A stretch of 24,629 nucleotides of DNA from a virus, in IMG/VR virus record IMGVR_UViG_3300031673_000457, positions 1-24,629 of that record. One strand, 5' to 3'. The notes under the pieces were generated by a model that saw nothing but the letters and a program-made list of their open reading frames with translations, was not told the origin of the DNA and did no database searches. This document shows, piece by piece, positions 8,557 to 23,162 of the stretch; the stretch's first letter is position 1, and each line of letters begins with the position of its first letter. The position numbers and the translations under genes are program-made.

Positions 8557-10572
8557 ATGTCCACCTCCCCGGAGCTCGAGCGATTCATCGAGGCGCGGCA
8601 AAGGCGCCTCGTTCGTTTATACCAGGACGCCTATGCCGAGTTGGTTTCCCGGCTAGCCCGGCAGAAGTTTTATGGCCTGTCAACGGAGTTCACCGGTAAT
8701 TTACTCCGCGATGTCGAGCGTACCCTGACCCGGTTGGACGGCGAGATGGTGACCTGGATCCAAGATACGTTCCCGGACGTCTATCGCGACAGCTCAGACC
8801 AAACCCTGGTCGACTTGAGCCGGCGATACCACATGGCGGGCCTCTCGGGCAGTTTCGCTCAAGTCCACCAAGACGCAGTACGGCGGCTGATGGCCGACAC
8901 ATTCCGCGACATCGCCGCCGCCACGCAGAACGTCAGGGCGGAGTTGAAGCGGGCCATCAGGGACGCCGCGAAAGGCATTTTCCGGCTGGGCGAGGTCACT
9001 GGCGAGACTCGGGTCCAGATGACCAAGCGGCTGGTCTCGAGGTTGGCGGCGCGCGGATTCACGGCCGAGTATGACGCGAAAGGGAAGTACATCAGGCTGG
9101 CTGAGTATTCGGATAGGCTGAGTTATGAACGCTACGCCGAACTCATGATGGAGAATCATTGGGTGGGGTTTGTTGACGCTGCTGGCCGGCGGTGGGACTT
9201 GTTGAACTACTCGGAGATGCTCACCAGGACGAAGATCCGGGAGGCCGTGTCCAGGGGCACCGAGGATAGGCTGCGCGCGAACGGCCTCGACTTGGTCCAG
9301 ATCGTGGGGCCCACTATCGTCGTCGATTGGTGCGGGGAGTACCGCGGCAAGGTGTTCAGTATTAATGGGAACAGCACTGAGTTCCCGCCGCTGGCATCCA
9401 TCCCTAACGGCGGGTGTCCAATGCATCCTCGGTGCGTGCTAGGCGGAACGTTTGTCACGGGACCGCGCCCAGTCATGTCGTTCAGCCGATGGCACGAGGG
9501 AGAGATCGTCGTCATCCGTACTGCCAGCGGAAATGAATTGTCCGTCACCCCAAATCACCCTGTATTGACGCCGGAAGGCTGGGTCGCCTCGGGATTGCTG
9601 AATGAACGCGATCAAGTCATCCGTTACCTGGGGCAGCAAGGGATGGTGGATGCCGCTGACCCAGATTATGTAGACATTCCAACCCGCATCGAAGAAATAA
9701 CGTGTTCTCTTGGGCATTCGGGCAGCGTGTTTGCCCGTAGCGTGCCAGTGGCCGCCGAAGACTTCCACGGCGACGGGGTGGGTTCCAATGTCTGTATTGT
9801 ACGGGCCGACGGCCTGTTGGGAAATGATCGTGATTCCACGATCAGCAAGCCATCCGGCCAAGATTCTTTCTGCCTTGCTGGTGTTGCTACCAGCACGCTG
9901 CACGCCGAGGGCGCGGCGCGAAAGCTGTTCAACAGAGTGCTTCTTGCCGCGGACCGCATCATGAGCGGCGGCAGTCAGAGCCAATCGTCCTTCAGGCGAA
10001 AGGCGTGCCAGTCGGAGCCGGGTCGCTTCGGACATGTTGGCGGCCTTCTGAACGCCGAATTCGGTCAGGCGCCGTTGAATGGTGGCGTTATGGACACCAA
10101 GAGAACGGGCGATGTCGCTCTTGGTTTCCCCGGCCTGGTAGCGGTCAAAGATCTCTTGGCTATTAAGGGGCAGCGTTTCGTAGGCATGCGCCGCCTTGGG
10201 TCCGCGCAAGGGGATACCCAGCTTGACAAATCGTCGCTGGAGGGTGGCGGCACCGATACCCACACTCTTAGCCAGGGGCTTCAACCCTTCGCCGGCCAGA
10301 TAGCGTTTGACACAATCATCCAGGTCGAACGGCGGGCATTTTCTGGACATGTTTACAACCTCCAAACAAAGTATAGTTGGTATGCTTGCAATTCAATTAT
10401 AACACATAACTGCAAGGATGTCGAGGCCCCATTCGTGGCAAAGTTCCACGAGGTCGAGGAATTGACCGCAGCCCAGATGCCCGCCGACTCGCGCTGGCTG
10501 GGGAAGAACAAGGCGAATGGTCACGCGGACCAATCCGTGCTGAACAAGATGTATCGAGCAGTCAAGACCTAG
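8557..10572 (+). CDS. minor head protein (SPP1 gp7/Mu F-like) precursor containing an intein, 671 aa
   Basis: The host protein is a minor capsid/head morphogenesis protein encoded directly after the portal. Residues 1-292 are the N-extein: helical N-terminus and the gp7/Mu F-like domain (YSEMLTRTKIREAVSRGTE, VVDWCGEYRGKVFSI) ending in IPNGGCPMHPR. Residues 293-618 are the intein. Residues 619-671 are the C-extein starting CKDVEAPF. Splicing would restore ...HPR-CKDV..., matching the conserved HP-x-C signature at the end of this domain in phages, and give a mature protein of about 345 aa, a usual size. The frame is open throughout, so the insert must be removed by protein splicing rather than RNA splicing. 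The start is ATG 8557, three bases after the portal stop, with a weak GGCGGTG. The opposite strand of the intein encodes a nuclease. Confidence 0.9.
   Translation: MSTSPELERFIEARQRRLVRLYQDAYAELVSRLARQKFYGLSTEFTGNLLRDVERTLTRLDGEMVTWIQDTFPDVYRDSSDQTLVDLSRRYHMAGLSGSFAQVHQDAVRRLMADTFRDIAAATQNVRAELKRAIRDAAKGIFRLGEVTGETRVQMTKRLVSRLAARGFTAEYDAKGKYIRLAEYSDRLSYERYAELMMENHWVGFVDAAGRRWDLLNYSEMLTRTKIREAVSRGTEDRLRANGLDLVQIVGPTIVVDWCGEYRGKVFSINGNSTEFPPLASIPNGGCPMHPRCVLGGTFVTGPRPVMSFSRWHEGEIVVIRTASGNELSVTPNHPVLTPEGWVASGLLNERDQVIRYLGQQGMVDAADPDYVDIPTRIEEITCSLGHSGSVFARSVPVAAEDFHGDGVGSNVCIVRADGLLGNDRDSTISKPSGQDSFCLAGVATSTLHAEGAARKLFNRVLLAADRIMSGGSQSQSSFRRKACQSEPGRFGHVGGLLNAEFGQAPLNGGVMDTKRTGDVALGFPGLVAVKDLLAIKGQRFVGMRRLGSAQGDTQLDKSSLEGGGTDTHTLSQGLQPFAGQIAFDTIIQVERRAFSGHVYNLQTKYSWYACNSIITHNCKDVEAPFVAKFHEVEELTAAQMPADSRWLGKNKANGHADQSVLNKMYRAVKT
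9439..10350 (-). CDS. antisense Vsr-like (EDxHD-type) homing endonuclease nested in the intein, 303 aa
   Basis: This complete gene is on the strand opposite the intein. Start ATG (complement of 10348-10350) lies eight bases after GGAGG (complement of 10359-10363); an upstream in-frame ATG at 10365 precedes the Shine-Dalgarno sequence and is rejected. Two homologous helix-turn-helix repeats occupy residues about 9-48 and 63-101 (LAKSVGIGAATLQRRFVKLG; IARSLGVHNATIQRRLTEFG), fitting DNA recognition. A linker at 118-150 resembles nuclease-associated modular DNA-binding segments. The catalytic domain spans about 157-232: SKAERIL (Glu161), YNTDI (Asp187), VAVEVFGGHWH (Glu196, His201, His203), then RTRYFFDAGWNVYIIWV. 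This is the pattern of the very-short-patch-repair fold used by EDxHD homing nucleases such as I-Bth0305I. It presumably cuts intein-less minor head genes at the HPR|C site. The stop TAG (9439-9441) lies six bases inside the intein. Confidence 0.88.
   Translation of the reverse strand: MSRKCPPFDLDDCVKRYLAGEGLKPLAKSVGIGAATLQRRFVKLGIPLRGPKAAHAYETLPLNSQEIFDRYQAGETKSDIARSLGVHNATIQRRLTEFGVQKAANMSEATRLRLARLSPEGRLALTAAAHDAVRGKKHSVEQLSRRALGVQRAGSNTSKAERILAGWLADRGITIISQQAVGPYNTDIGTHPVAVEVFGGHWHATGKHAARMPKRTRYFFDAGWNVYIIWVSGIHHPLLPQVTDDLIAFIQQSRGDPAFRRQYRVIWGDGQFISAGSTDDDDLSLVPSAERHDWARSRDKRSA
10359..10363 (-). promoter_or_regulatory. Shine-Dalgarno of the antisense endonuclease
   Basis: GGAGG on the minus strand, eight bases before the ATG at 10350. 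The same bases encode Asn-Leu-Gln of intein block F on the plus strand. It decides the start of the nuclease at 10350 rather than 10365. Confidence 0.75.
10396..10424 (-). promoter_or_regulatory. sigma70-like promoter for the antisense endonuclease
   Basis: On the minus strand, -35 TCGACA (complement of 10419-10424, five of six to consensus) is separated by exactly 17 bases from a perfect TATAAT (complement of 10396-10401), preceded by TG at the extended -10 position. Transcription would start near 10389, about 40 bases before the nuclease start codon. The -10 box and spacer lie over the intein's C-terminal catalytic codons (Ile-Ile-Thr-His-Asn), while the -35 lies in the C-extein, so the full promoter exists only after insertion. 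Confidence 0.7.
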
Positions 10573-10977: not shown

Positions 10978-11242
10978 GCCGGCACCGATTGAGACTGTTA
11001 CGAAATCCGCGGCCAGTCCAGCTAAACAGCCCTTCCGGCAGTACCGCCGCTGGGAAACCGGGAAGGAGATCCTGGCCAGGGTGGCGGATAAACCGTTCCG
11101 GGTCTGCGATCAGGGTATTTGGAGCGACGGCGAGGCCGGTCAGGTTGAGTGTCATTACCTCGATGTCGGCGGCGGCATGAGTCCAAATGGCTGGGCAATG
11201 ACGCCGGATGGATTCGAGCGGCTGTACGAGGTGGTGAAGTGA
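10940..11242 (+). CDS. hypothetical protein, 100 aa
   Basis: The start is TTG 10940, nine bases after GGAGG (10926-10930). The N-terminal 40 residues are Lys/Arg/Pro/Ala-rich and probably disordered. The C-terminal 60 form a small domain (GKEILARVADKPFRVCDQGIWSDGE, GWAMTPDGFERLYEVVK) of unknown family. The stop overlaps the next start by one base (TGATG). It sits in the head gene cluster. Confidence 0.7.
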   Translation: MEQGKTTTARRREPAPIETVTKSAASPAKQPFRQYRRWETGKEILARVADKPFRVCDQGIWSDGEAGQVECHYLDVGGGMSPNGWAMTPDGFERLYEVVK

Positions 11243-11643
11243 TGGCCGAGTACAGCGAAGAGCAGCGGAAGCAGTTGCAGGATCTGCTCGGCAAGTGGCG
11301 GTCGAAACTCCGGCTGGACCAGTGGATCGTCCGGGTGCAGTGGGACAGGCTACCGGACAGCGGCGAAGGCACCGTGCTTGAAATACAGCCCGTGGAGGGA
11401 CGCCAGTTTGCCAACCTCCGCGTGGGAACGTTTTTCGAGCAAACCCAATCGCAGGCCGAGAACGCGGCCTGTCATGAAATGTTTCATCTAGGCTTCAACC
11501 AGATGGACGTTGTCGTAGAGCAGATGCTGGAACAGTTGAGTCCACAGATGCGGGAATTGCTGCGAACGCTTTACCACGAGCAGGTAGAGCGGATCGTTGA
11601 CTGGTTGGCGCTTATTACCGCCCCCATGGATGAACTTCGGTGA
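11242..11643 (+). CDS. HExxH putative zinc metallopeptidase-like protein, 133 aa
   Basis: The core motif is AACHEMFHLGF: His78, Glu79 and His82 form the HExxH pattern of zinc metallopeptidases (zincins). Possible third ligands are Glu113 or Glu116 in the helical C-terminus (YHEQVERIVDWL). The protein is short and mostly one domain with no signal peptide, so it acts in the cytoplasm. Located directly before the scaffold gene, it might process head proteins, or be a structural relative that has kept only the fold. The start is ATG 11242, seven bases after GAGGTGG; the frame extends upstream to 11149 over the previous gene. A terminator begins four bases after its stop. Confidence 0.72.
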   Translation: MAEYSEEQRKQLQDLLGKWRSKLRLDQWIVRVQWDRLPDSGEGTVLEIQPVEGRQFANLRVGTFFEQTQSQAENAACHEMFHLGFNQMDVVVEQMLEQLSPQMRELLRTLYHEQVERIVDWLALITAPMDELR

Positions 11644-17773: not shown

Positions 17774-18625
17774 TTGGCGGAAGATATTACTCAGGTCAAC
17801 CTGGGAATTTGTTCGGTGACGCTCAACGATGTCAACCTGGGCTTCACCAAGGGTGGCGCGGAGTTGACCTACAAAGGTACGTGGGTCAAGCTTGCTGTCG
17901 ATCAACAAGGCATCACGCCGGTTAAGAAGGTTTTTACCGGCGAGGAAGTCAGCGTCAAGACCAATTTGTCGCAGCTTTCTCATGATAATCTAGTGGCCGC
18001 ATGTGGCGGGGCGGGAACAAAGATCACCGATGGGACGAAGCATGCCGTCACGTTTGGCCGGGAACCGGGCTTTGAGGCCGACAGCTACGTACTATCCTTG
18101 CACCCGGAATACATGGGCGCGAGCCTGGAAAACGACGTGACGATCTACAAGGCCAGCGGCATTGCCGACGTGGCTTCGGCGTTCAAACTTGAGGACGGAA
18201 CCGTTATTCCAGTAACATTCGAGGGCATCGCCGACCTGACCAGGGCGGACAAAGACCGCCTCTGGCGGTTCGGTGACGCCACGGCCAGCGTGGATCTGGA
18301 AGCGCCAACAATGACCATCGTGCCGGTCGACGAGGCGGTTGGCGTGGACAAGGCGATCACCACCACCGTCCAGATCACGTTTAGTAAGGATATGAACCCT
18401 GCCACAATCATCGCGGGTAATCTCACGGTCATCGCGGATGTCGCCAAGACGCTCAAGGATGGCGTTTGGTCCTATATTTCGGCCACGAAAAAAGCCATTT
18501 TCACGCCGAGCACGGAGTGGGCGGGCACCACGAAGTACAAGGTGTTAGTGTCTACGGATGTCAAGTCCATCAACGGCGTGTCCATGGCGGCATGGTCCGT
18601 AACCGACTTCACCACCGCCGCGTAA
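17774..18625 (+). CDS. major tail (tube) protein with C-terminal Ig-like domain, 283 aa
   Basis: Polymerises to form the tail tube. Residues 1-170 resemble a tube protein (SVTLNDVNLGFTKGGAELTYKG, followed by strands and the FEGIADLTRADKDRLWRFGD end). Residues about 178-283 form a bacterial Ig-like domain of the SbsA/Big_5 type: PTMTIVPVDEAVGVDKAI..., VQITFSKDMNPATI, IFTPSTEWAGTTKYKVLVS, SVTDFTTAA. Ig-like domains at this position are common and would decorate the outside of the tail. The start is TTG 17774, seven bases after AGGAGG (17761-17766). A strong terminator follows, consistent with high expression. Confidence 0.85.
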   Translation: MAEDITQVNLGICSVTLNDVNLGFTKGGAELTYKGTWVKLAVDQQGITPVKKVFTGEEVSVKTNLSQLSHDNLVAACGGAGTKITDGTKHAVTFGREPGFEADSYVLSLHPEYMGASLENDVTIYKASGIADVASAFKLEDGTVIPVTFEGIADLTRADKDRLWRFGDATASVDLEAPTMTIVPVDEAVGVDKAITTTVQITFSKDMNPATIIAGNLTVIADVAKTLKDGVWSYISATKKAIFTPSTEWAGTTKYKVLVSTDVKSINGVSMAAWSVTDFTTAA

Positions 18626-22493: not shown

Positions 22494-23162
22494 TTGGCGA
22501 CATTTAGCACCCCGTGGGACGCGGTGGCTGGGTATGAACTTACCGAACAATACCGGACGCTGATCACTCCAATGGAGACCGGCAAGGAACAGCGGCGATC
22601 GGTTTGGGTTAGCCCACGCCGGGCGTGGAAGTTGAGATTTCGCAAGAATTCAACTGATTTTACCACGATCAAGAATTTTTTCGAGGCCCGCTTGGGCGCG
22701 TACGAGGCTTTTGACTGGACCGATCCCGATAACGTTTCGCGCAAGATCCGCCTTTTGAATGACAACCTAGAGGCACGGGTTGTCAACGGACACGCTGAGC
22801 TCGAACTTATTTTCGTGCAGGTCTTTGACTCGGATACTACACCCCCGACAGTCTCCAGCGTGACCCCGGTAAACGGCGCAACCGATCAAGCTATTGATGT
22901 CAATGTCGTTTGGATAATGGCCGAGGCGATCCTGCCAAGCGATGTTACGGCCACCTATTTTCACTTAATCGATTCGACCACCGGCGTCTCGGTGGCTTGC
23001 GCGTTATCATTCTCTGGAGACGGCACGACAATCACGCTAAACCCGGACGCGAACCTGACGAACAACCGGATCTACCTCCCCCGCGTTGAGGCTGGAGTTC
23101 ACGATCTATCCAATAACCAACTTGTGGCGGCCTATGGGTCAAAGTTTACTACGATAGCATAA
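22494..23162 (+). CDS. distal-tail region protein with C-terminal Ig-like domain, 222 aa
   Basis: The first gene after the tape measure. Residues 1-115 resemble small minor tail proteins of the lambda gpM/DUF2460-like type: RRAWKLRFRKNSTDFTTIKNFFEARLGAYEAFDWTDPDN. It probably joins tube tip and hub. Residues about 118-222 form a degenerate Big_5-like Ig domain (TPPTVSSVTPVNGATDQAI... to SKFTTIA), the same type as on the tail tube protein but lacking the usual ITFS-x-x-M core. The start is TTG 22494 behind TAGGAGGTGA. Confidence 0.72.
   Translation: MATFSTPWDAVAGYELTEQYRTLITPMETGKEQRRSVWVSPRRAWKLRFRKNSTDFTTIKNFFEARLGAYEAFDWTDPDNVSRKIRLLNDNLEARVVNGHAELELIFVQVFDSDTTPPTVSSVTPVNGATDQAIDVNVVWIMAEAILPSDVTATYFHLIDSTTGVSVACALSFSGDGTTITLNPDANLTNNRIYLPRVEAGVHDLSNNQLVAAYGSKFTTIA

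Follow-up and report, generated by a model that had tools for sequence, protein, structure and literature searches.

Directly downstream of the terminase and portal genes, the window (the whole stretch of viral DNA analysed, 24,629 nucleotides) carries a minor head protein gene interrupted by an insert with the features of an intein, and the opposite strand of that insert holds a second open reading frame, a putative homing endonuclease gene. The features of the locus are as follows.

8557..10572, plus strand: minor head protein gene of the MuF/SPP1-gp7 type with the intein inserted in it; it encodes a 671 aa precursor, which splicing would reduce to 345 aa (matches to Pfam Phage_min_cap2 and to the PHROG minor head protein)
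9433..10410, plus strand: intein, 326 aa, Cys1 to Asn326, followed by Cys+1 (sequence motifs, profile, AF2 Hint fold)
9547..9558, plus strand: block B, T-P-N-H, codon-opposite nuclease residues G268-W267-I266-V265, in a region of dual constraint
9760..9777, plus strand: sense motif D-F-H-G-D-G, codon-opposite the catalytic strand V197-E196-V195-A194-V193-P192; both strands constrained
10348..10365, plus strand: block F, H-V-Y-N-L-Q, whose complement is the nuclease Shine-Dalgarno sequence and start codon
10396..10410, plus strand: block G, I-I-T-H-N, whose complement holds the -10 box TATAAT
9439..10350, minus strand: nested antisense homing endonuclease gene (putative), 303 aa, ATG at 10350, stop at 9439-9441 (ORF, profiles, AF2 mean pLDDT 92)
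10219..10323, minus strand: first HTH unit of the nuclease, residues 10-44 (model helices; residues 7-99 match PDB 2lvs by profile)
10063..10161, minus strand: second HTH unit, residues 64-96 (HTH_38/HTH_23 and model helices)
9520..9876, minus strand: EDxHD/Vsr-like nuclease domain, residues 159-277, with E161, D187 and E196 (profile, fold, conservation)
10359..10363, minus strand: Shine-Dalgarno sequence GGAGG of the nuclease, opposite the Asn-Leu-Gln codons AAC CTC CAA
10396..10424, minus strand: predicted extended -10 promoter, TCGACA-17-TG-TATAAT, 11/12 matches, with the -10 box at 10396-10401 in the intein and the -35 box at 10419-10424 in the C-extein

Elsewhere in the window, a C-5 cytosine DNA methylase gene lies near the left end (626-1600), a small protein encoded at 11149-11643 carries a HEMFH (HExxH-like) motif without a Pfam match, and two structural-region proteins (17774-18625 and 22494-23162) end in C-terminal Big_5 Ig-like domains (E=1e-12 and 6e-19). 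An Rfam search of the window gave no match.

The intein and its antisense nuclease gene

A profile search of the plus strand matched Phage_min_cap2 (E=1.4e-10) and Intein_splicing (E=2e-7), and the splice residues are in place: Cys1, T39-P-N-H42 of block B, H325-N326 at the C-terminus and Cys+1. An AlphaFold2 (AF2) model of the intein is confident for the Hint fold at residues 1-125 and 283-326, with most of residues 128-274 below a pLDDT of 50, and its best Foldseek matches are the Mtu RecA intein structures. A Hint fold in frame with both exteins is thus present in the window intein, and 202 of 204 distinct inteins of the family keep this frame unbroken; that the intein splices is inferred from sequence and model, without splicing data. 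No nuclease family was detected in the sense protein by profile search. A cryptic nuclease on the sense strand was rejected on this ground and on the mostly unstructured sense middle of the model, a stretch (residues 128-274) that coincides with the one where the antisense gene carries information. Hence the initial annotation's claim of intact splicing motifs without a sense-strand nuclease held by motifs, profile search and model alike. The element is not a canonical endonuclease-containing intein, in which the nuclease is an in-frame sense domain, as the nuclease lies on the minus strand; nor is it a fractured gene with a split intein, the sense ORF being unbroken (671 aa) in the window as in 202 of the 204 family members.

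The nuclease gene lies wholly inside the intein, from 6 bases after its first base to 60 bases before its last, and the coordinates initially given for the intein, the nested gene, its 303 codons and both offsets were all confirmed. The two frames are codon-aligned, with position 1 of each sense codon facing position 3 of the antisense codon, and a nuclease residue number equals 307 minus that of the intein residue. Neither the sense frame of the window intein nor the codon-aligned antisense frame within the gene contains a stop, compared to 8-18 in the other four frames; from the Leu/Ser content and the codons favoured by the host gene, chance would place 8.5 stops in the sense frame and 7.2 in the nuclease frame.

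Taken singly, the window nuclease gives weak profile scores, and those against Pfam mostly fall below curated cut-offs: the antisense protein alone matched HTH_38/HTH_23 at about 1e-5 and REase_MTES_1575 at E=4e-4, and phmmer with this single sequence against the PDB returned no match. Single-sequence scans of 21 family members matched MTES_1575 in 10 of the 21, DUF559 in 3, Vsr in 1 and HTH_7 in 11. A profile built from 21 relatives matched the catalytic domain of I-Bth0305I (PDB 3r3p) at E=6.8e-8 and a DUF559-like endonuclease (3hrl) at 5.9e-5. In the alignment to 3r3p, E161 and E196 stand opposite glutamates, while D187 stands opposite an alanine of the crystal sequence. AlphaFold2 with 71 sequences modeled the nuclease at a mean pLDDT of 92, and I-Bth0305I was again the top Foldseek match (E=5e-4, TM 0.63 by target), making it the best match among nucleases by both profile and fold. 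The closest relatives share about 60% identity or less with the window nuclease, whose own activity is thus inferred only indirectly. D187 and E196 are conserved in 200 of 200 aligned relatives, Y184 and N185 in 199 and E161 in 198. By catalytic-domain homology and conserved acidic residues, the antisense protein is therefore an EDxHD/Vsr-like nuclease; that it cleaves DNA is inferred. Two HTH repeats and a Vsr/EDxHD-type core around Glu161 and Asp187, both proposed from the single sequence, are upheld by profile and fold, and the Vsr-like profile match that could have failed was obtained. Of the proposed VEVFGGHWH motif, E196 is invariant (200/200); GGHWH is present in the window nuclease and is not kept in all members, and the His and Asp of EDxHD were not mapped residue by residue.

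Dual selection and predicted expression signals within the splice motifs

To compare constraint on the two strands, we measured the ratio of substitutions at sense codon position 1 to those at position 3 in 28 independent pairs. The two exteins gave ratios of 0.55 and 0.56, and the ends of the intein 0.39 (first 20 residues) and 0.38 (last 26), as opposed to 1.6 in the nuclease core and 1.38 in the nuclease N-terminal (HTH) part. Across the nuclease region, position-1 changes exceeded position-3 changes in 28 of 28 pairs, an antisense-guided alignment gave the same outcome, and the closest pairs still showed purifying selection on the antisense strand. Intein residues 21-60, where Hint blocks overlie the nuclease C-terminus, changed slowly at positions 1 and 3 alike (0.17 and 0.20, ratio 0.83). 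The shift toward position 1 in the nuclease, together with the position-3 bias of exteins and splice motifs, demonstrates selection on both strands: it acts on the antisense strand for the nuclease, on the sense strand for the splice motifs, and on both strands at once in residues 21-60.

Conserved motifs of the two products also face one another. T-P-N-H of block B lies opposite V-I-W-G of the conserved nuclease strand YRVIWGDG, and the catalytic strand lies opposite the second sense motif, D-F-H-G-D-G. Opposite D-F-H-G-D, the antisense wobble bases are nearly fixed, with Val195 encoded by GTG in 179 of 181 cases (21% elsewhere) and Ala194 by GCC in 187 of 194 (47% elsewhere), which argues that the opposed sense residues are selected too. 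In a free-standing relative without a detectable intein (L239), the sense reading at this place is Y-F-N-R-N; the distant loci L025, L311 and L312 also depart from F-H-G-D with the catalytic Glu retained. In one of these, L311 of Mycobacterium phage Sejanus, the intein with the antisense nuclease interrupts a capsid maturation protease gene, and the catalytic strand is VLDIEI rather than VAVEV.

The C-terminal splice motifs match consensus expression signals on the complementary strand. Among 186 block F motifs (H-V-Y-N-L-Q/E), the complement of the first-residue codon is ATG in 134 and GTG in 16 (150 start codons), and a Shine-Dalgarno core is present in 132, about 29% having no recognisable one. 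The block F Leu codon is CTC in 137 of 186 motifs versus 24% of Leu codons in the neighbouring extein. The Ile pair of block G is mostly ATT ATA (ATT 81/119 versus 28%, and ATA 55/74 versus 21%, in the extein), the complement of which reads TATAAT. Furthermore, the best promoter score averaged 8.25 over 177 inteins, compared to 7.09 (sd 0.06) under synonymous codon resampling. Since the predicted -35 box lies in the extein, promoter strength would depend on the insertion site. On the strength of these consensus matches, and without transcript data, we propose that the splice motifs double as expression signals for the nuclease, block F providing the start codon and Shine-Dalgarno sequence and block G the -10 box. 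The earlier suggestion that the nuclease can be expressed separately from the late head genes is supported by the conserved start codon, the Shine-Dalgarno sequence and a promoter signal above the synonymous null; its timing is inferred.

Family distribution and mobility

Searching with the antisense protein by tblastn returned 128 phage records, mostly beneath genes annotated as head-morphogenesis or hypothetical, and in the inspected regions the nuclease was annotated only once (P1068). Carriers include well-studied phages of Salmonella (Jerseyvirus), Gordonia, Pseudomonas, Vibrio and Klebsiella, in which the nuclease is almost never annotated. A first scan of genome contigs found none; one profile (A1) spanned too much diversity to be run against the collections, and close sub-alignments were used instead. 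Nuclease patterns run against IMG/VR and GTDB genomes raised the total to 275 loci, almost all recruited by nuclease similarity, and such pattern scans favour well-conserved copies. Hint N and C halves were found on the opposite strand in 264 of the 275 loci, the N half only in 7, and no detectable intein in 4. Among the 204 distinct inteins, 202 have an unbroken sense frame and 202 a nuclease encoded by one ORF, with 201 meeting both conditions, although host codon usage predicts about 6 stops per intein for either frame, AT-rich inteins included. The nuclease is nested within the intein and codon-aligned to the Hint N frame in all 204; Cys1 is present in 199 of 201 family inteins. The sampled nucleases form 118 clusters at 50% identity. 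Conversely, every complete intein found by searching with a sense intein has an antisense nuclease match, that of L278 being a shortened remnant. Thus, closure of the antisense frame in most homologues, which would have spoken against the initial annotation, was not observed: 202 of 204 distinct inteins have it open, and neither the nesting nor the register ever varies. The wide spread, the splice motifs as promoter, ribosome site and start codon, and the placement of the catalytic motif opposite a second conserved sense motif go beyond what that annotation had proposed.

The usual insertion site is the HP-N/C-R-C motif of MuF-type proteins (the slash marks the junction), with variants. Phage phi297 has an uninterrupted gene that matches the intein-bearing CF136b across the junction AAC/TGC, with flanks 94-100% identical. 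Between Salmonella phages TUMS_E6 and VSe103, identity drops from about 98-99% to 76-86% near the site; this may reflect co-conversion, and ordinary recombination could also yield it. In Jerseyvirus, the drop in identity near the site between L014 and L314 is what a co-conversion tract could leave. In several pairs the inteins are much more alike than their host genes; for L032 and L041, the host N-part is 28% identical, compared to 82% for Hint-N and 62% for the nuclease. The empty sites, together with inteins far more alike than their host genes, therefore indicate mobility. The related intein of Escherichia phage fEg-Eco06 (L020, Kagunavirus), also with an antisense nuclease, interrupts the same head gene elsewhere than does the intein of phage Snoke (L005). 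Two mini-inteins, L273 (194 aa) and L278 (about 184 aa), arose by in-frame deletion in the nuclease and keep the splice motifs with the nuclease broken; L273 also lacks the start-codon His. What would be expected of a mobile intein is thus shown by sequence: the gene lies inside the element in 204 of 204 cases, an empty allele exists, and the element has moved horizontally. Cleavage and gene conversion are inferred.

Only four loci lacked a detected intein, and free-standing genes as a rule were rejected for that reason. In three of them the opposite frame is interrupted by stops (13 in L023, 5 in L239 and 22 in the distant L275), which led us to reject the idea that the nuclease itself forces that frame open; L077 (2491-3370), with an open codon-aligned opposite frame and no detectable Hint halves, is an exception. 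The free-standing nuclease of Acinetobacter phage P1068 (L023, 1911-2804) is convergent with, and overlaps the end of, a head morphogenesis gene. That of L239 (2497-3364) lies just downstream of an uninterrupted MuF gene ending near an HP-G-C-R-C motif and could conceivably be an ancestor of the nested form or an escapee from it.

Proposed mechanism, alternatives and relation to known systems

These results make it very likely that the element is a mobile intein in which one strand of the DNA carries the splicing function and the complementary strand of that same stretch the mobility function. At the sequence level, the nesting, dual selection, intact catalytic and splice residues, conserved start codon, Shine-Dalgarno and -10 sequences, empty sites and horizontal spread are all shown; it is inferred that the intein splices, that the antisense gene is expressed (probably ahead of the late genes), and that its product cuts DNA and drives homing. 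In the proposed mechanism, the sense strand would be translated with the head gene, fold as a Hint domain and excise itself, the long middle of the sense product being a tolerated linker. The antisense strand would act as an independent gene, served by a promoter and a ribosome site of its own close to the 3' end of the intein, and its product would be a free EDxHD-type homing endonuclease with HTH repeats. This nuclease should bind and cut the uninterrupted MuF gene at HP-N/C-R-C, and repair would copy the intein in.

One alternative is that the element has degenerated, the nuclease being a decaying relic and homing having ceased in the window copy. Inteins are known to lose nucleases, and the in-frame deletion derivatives L273 and L278 exist. 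However, the window copy is full length with E161, D187 and E196, a Shine-Dalgarno sequence and a predicted promoter, and purifying selection acts on the antisense strand even in the closest pairs, so we regard degeneration as unlikely. It is also improbable that the nuclease serves mainly a non-homing use, for instance shutting out competing phages, or a regulatory role exerted by its HTH repeats or by an antisense RNA. The HTH repeats are compatible with this, an antisense transcript would overlap the late head gene, and exclusion by intron-encoded nucleases is known in other phages. Nevertheless, the tight coupling to a splicing element, the empty sites and the horizontal transfer fit homing, and cutting an intein-less competitor would achieve homing and exclusion together, so that the two are not mutually exclusive.

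Less plausible still is an unspliced insert like that of ShiLan, in which an endonuclease gene has an opposite frame that is merely open so that the head protein tolerates the insertion. Insertions of the ShiLan type exist (PMC11855218) and there are no splicing data, but Cys1 (199/201) and the block B and F/G motifs are conserved, position-3 bias is seen at both Hint ends, and the Hint model is confident with RecA intein matches. Finally, a mirror-ORF artefact, in which sense codon bias avoiding TTA, CTA and TCA alone keeps the frame open and the HTH and nuclease matches arise by chance, draws on the single-sequence Pfam scores mostly below curated cut-offs and on the codon-aligned antisense frame being most often the open one in GC-rich genes, but is all but excluded: the codon-position test already refutes it with an antisense-type substitution pattern in 28 of 28 pairs, the catalytic residues are kept in 198-200 of 200 relatives, the AF2 model reaches a pLDDT of 92 with I-Bth0305I matched by profile and fold, and about 6 stops are expected per frame, in AT-rich inteins too.

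A mobile intein dual-coded on opposite strands thus remains the preferred reading. Antisense-endonuclease inteins very probably constitute a large unrecognised class, and the depth of divergence suggests an old arrangement. A bolder reading, which we consider likely, is that bidirectional dual coding underlies an entire class of phage inteins. The strand complementary to the splice motifs would hold the promoter, ribosome site and start codon of the mobility enzyme and also encode its C-terminal strand, while its catalytic strand would face another intein motif that is itself under selection. Neither mutation nor deletion could then easily part the splicing element from the mobility gene. Splicing and mobility would be independently expressible yet physically inseparable, and the question of how an element residing in a late head gene obtains its nuclease early enough to enter another genome becomes testable. 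The family is also a large natural collection of genes that overlap in antisense and whose two products can both be identified, and it suggests scanning both strands of all large inteins seemingly without a nuclease.

Both component families are known, and as far as searched the antisense dual-coded arrangement is undescribed: the open-access literature searched, which left most subscription papers outside its scope, yielded no description of an antisense nuclease gene in an intein. To our knowledge, the endonuclease of an intein is either an in-frame sense domain or a separate gene in a fractured host gene. None of the systems we compared combines a contiguous intein with an antisense nuclease gene. 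Inteins with in-frame LAGLIDADG or HNH endonucleases (TliVMA, Mtu RecA; PMC8966425) share the Hint fold and motifs, a conserved host-protein site and a site-specific nuclease, whereas the window nuclease is a separate opposite-strand gene overlapping the Hint coding sequence. Fractured genes reportedly carry split inteins with a free-standing Vsr-like (EDxHD) endonuclease gene, mainly in phages (Dassa et al. 2009); they too have a Vsr-like nuclease gene within an intein locus, but here intein and host gene are contiguous (202/204) and the nuclease shares their base pairs in antisense. EDxHD nucleases of group I introns (PMC3943268), among them I-Bth0305I, have a catalytic domain homologous by profile and fold and extra DNA-binding modules; here, in contrast, the carrier is an intein and not an RNA intron, the DNA-binding part consists of tandem HTH units, and the gene is antisense. 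The ShiLan insertion (PMC11855218) hides an out-of-frame HNH endonuclease on the same strand, with no splicing domain detected: it resembles the present element in that a phage insertion without stops in the host frame conceals a homing nuclease in another frame, and differs in that the nuclease there is a same-strand, shifted-frame HNH enzyme, rather than an antisense EDxHD enzyme within an intact intein. Nuclear rDNA group I introns also contain antisense homing endonuclease genes, such as I-DsqI, for which an own promoter has been proposed (PMC9548176). These likewise run antisense to a splicing element, but they occupy a peripheral intron loop of a eukaryotic RNA gene, whereas in the inteins described here both strands are protein-coding.
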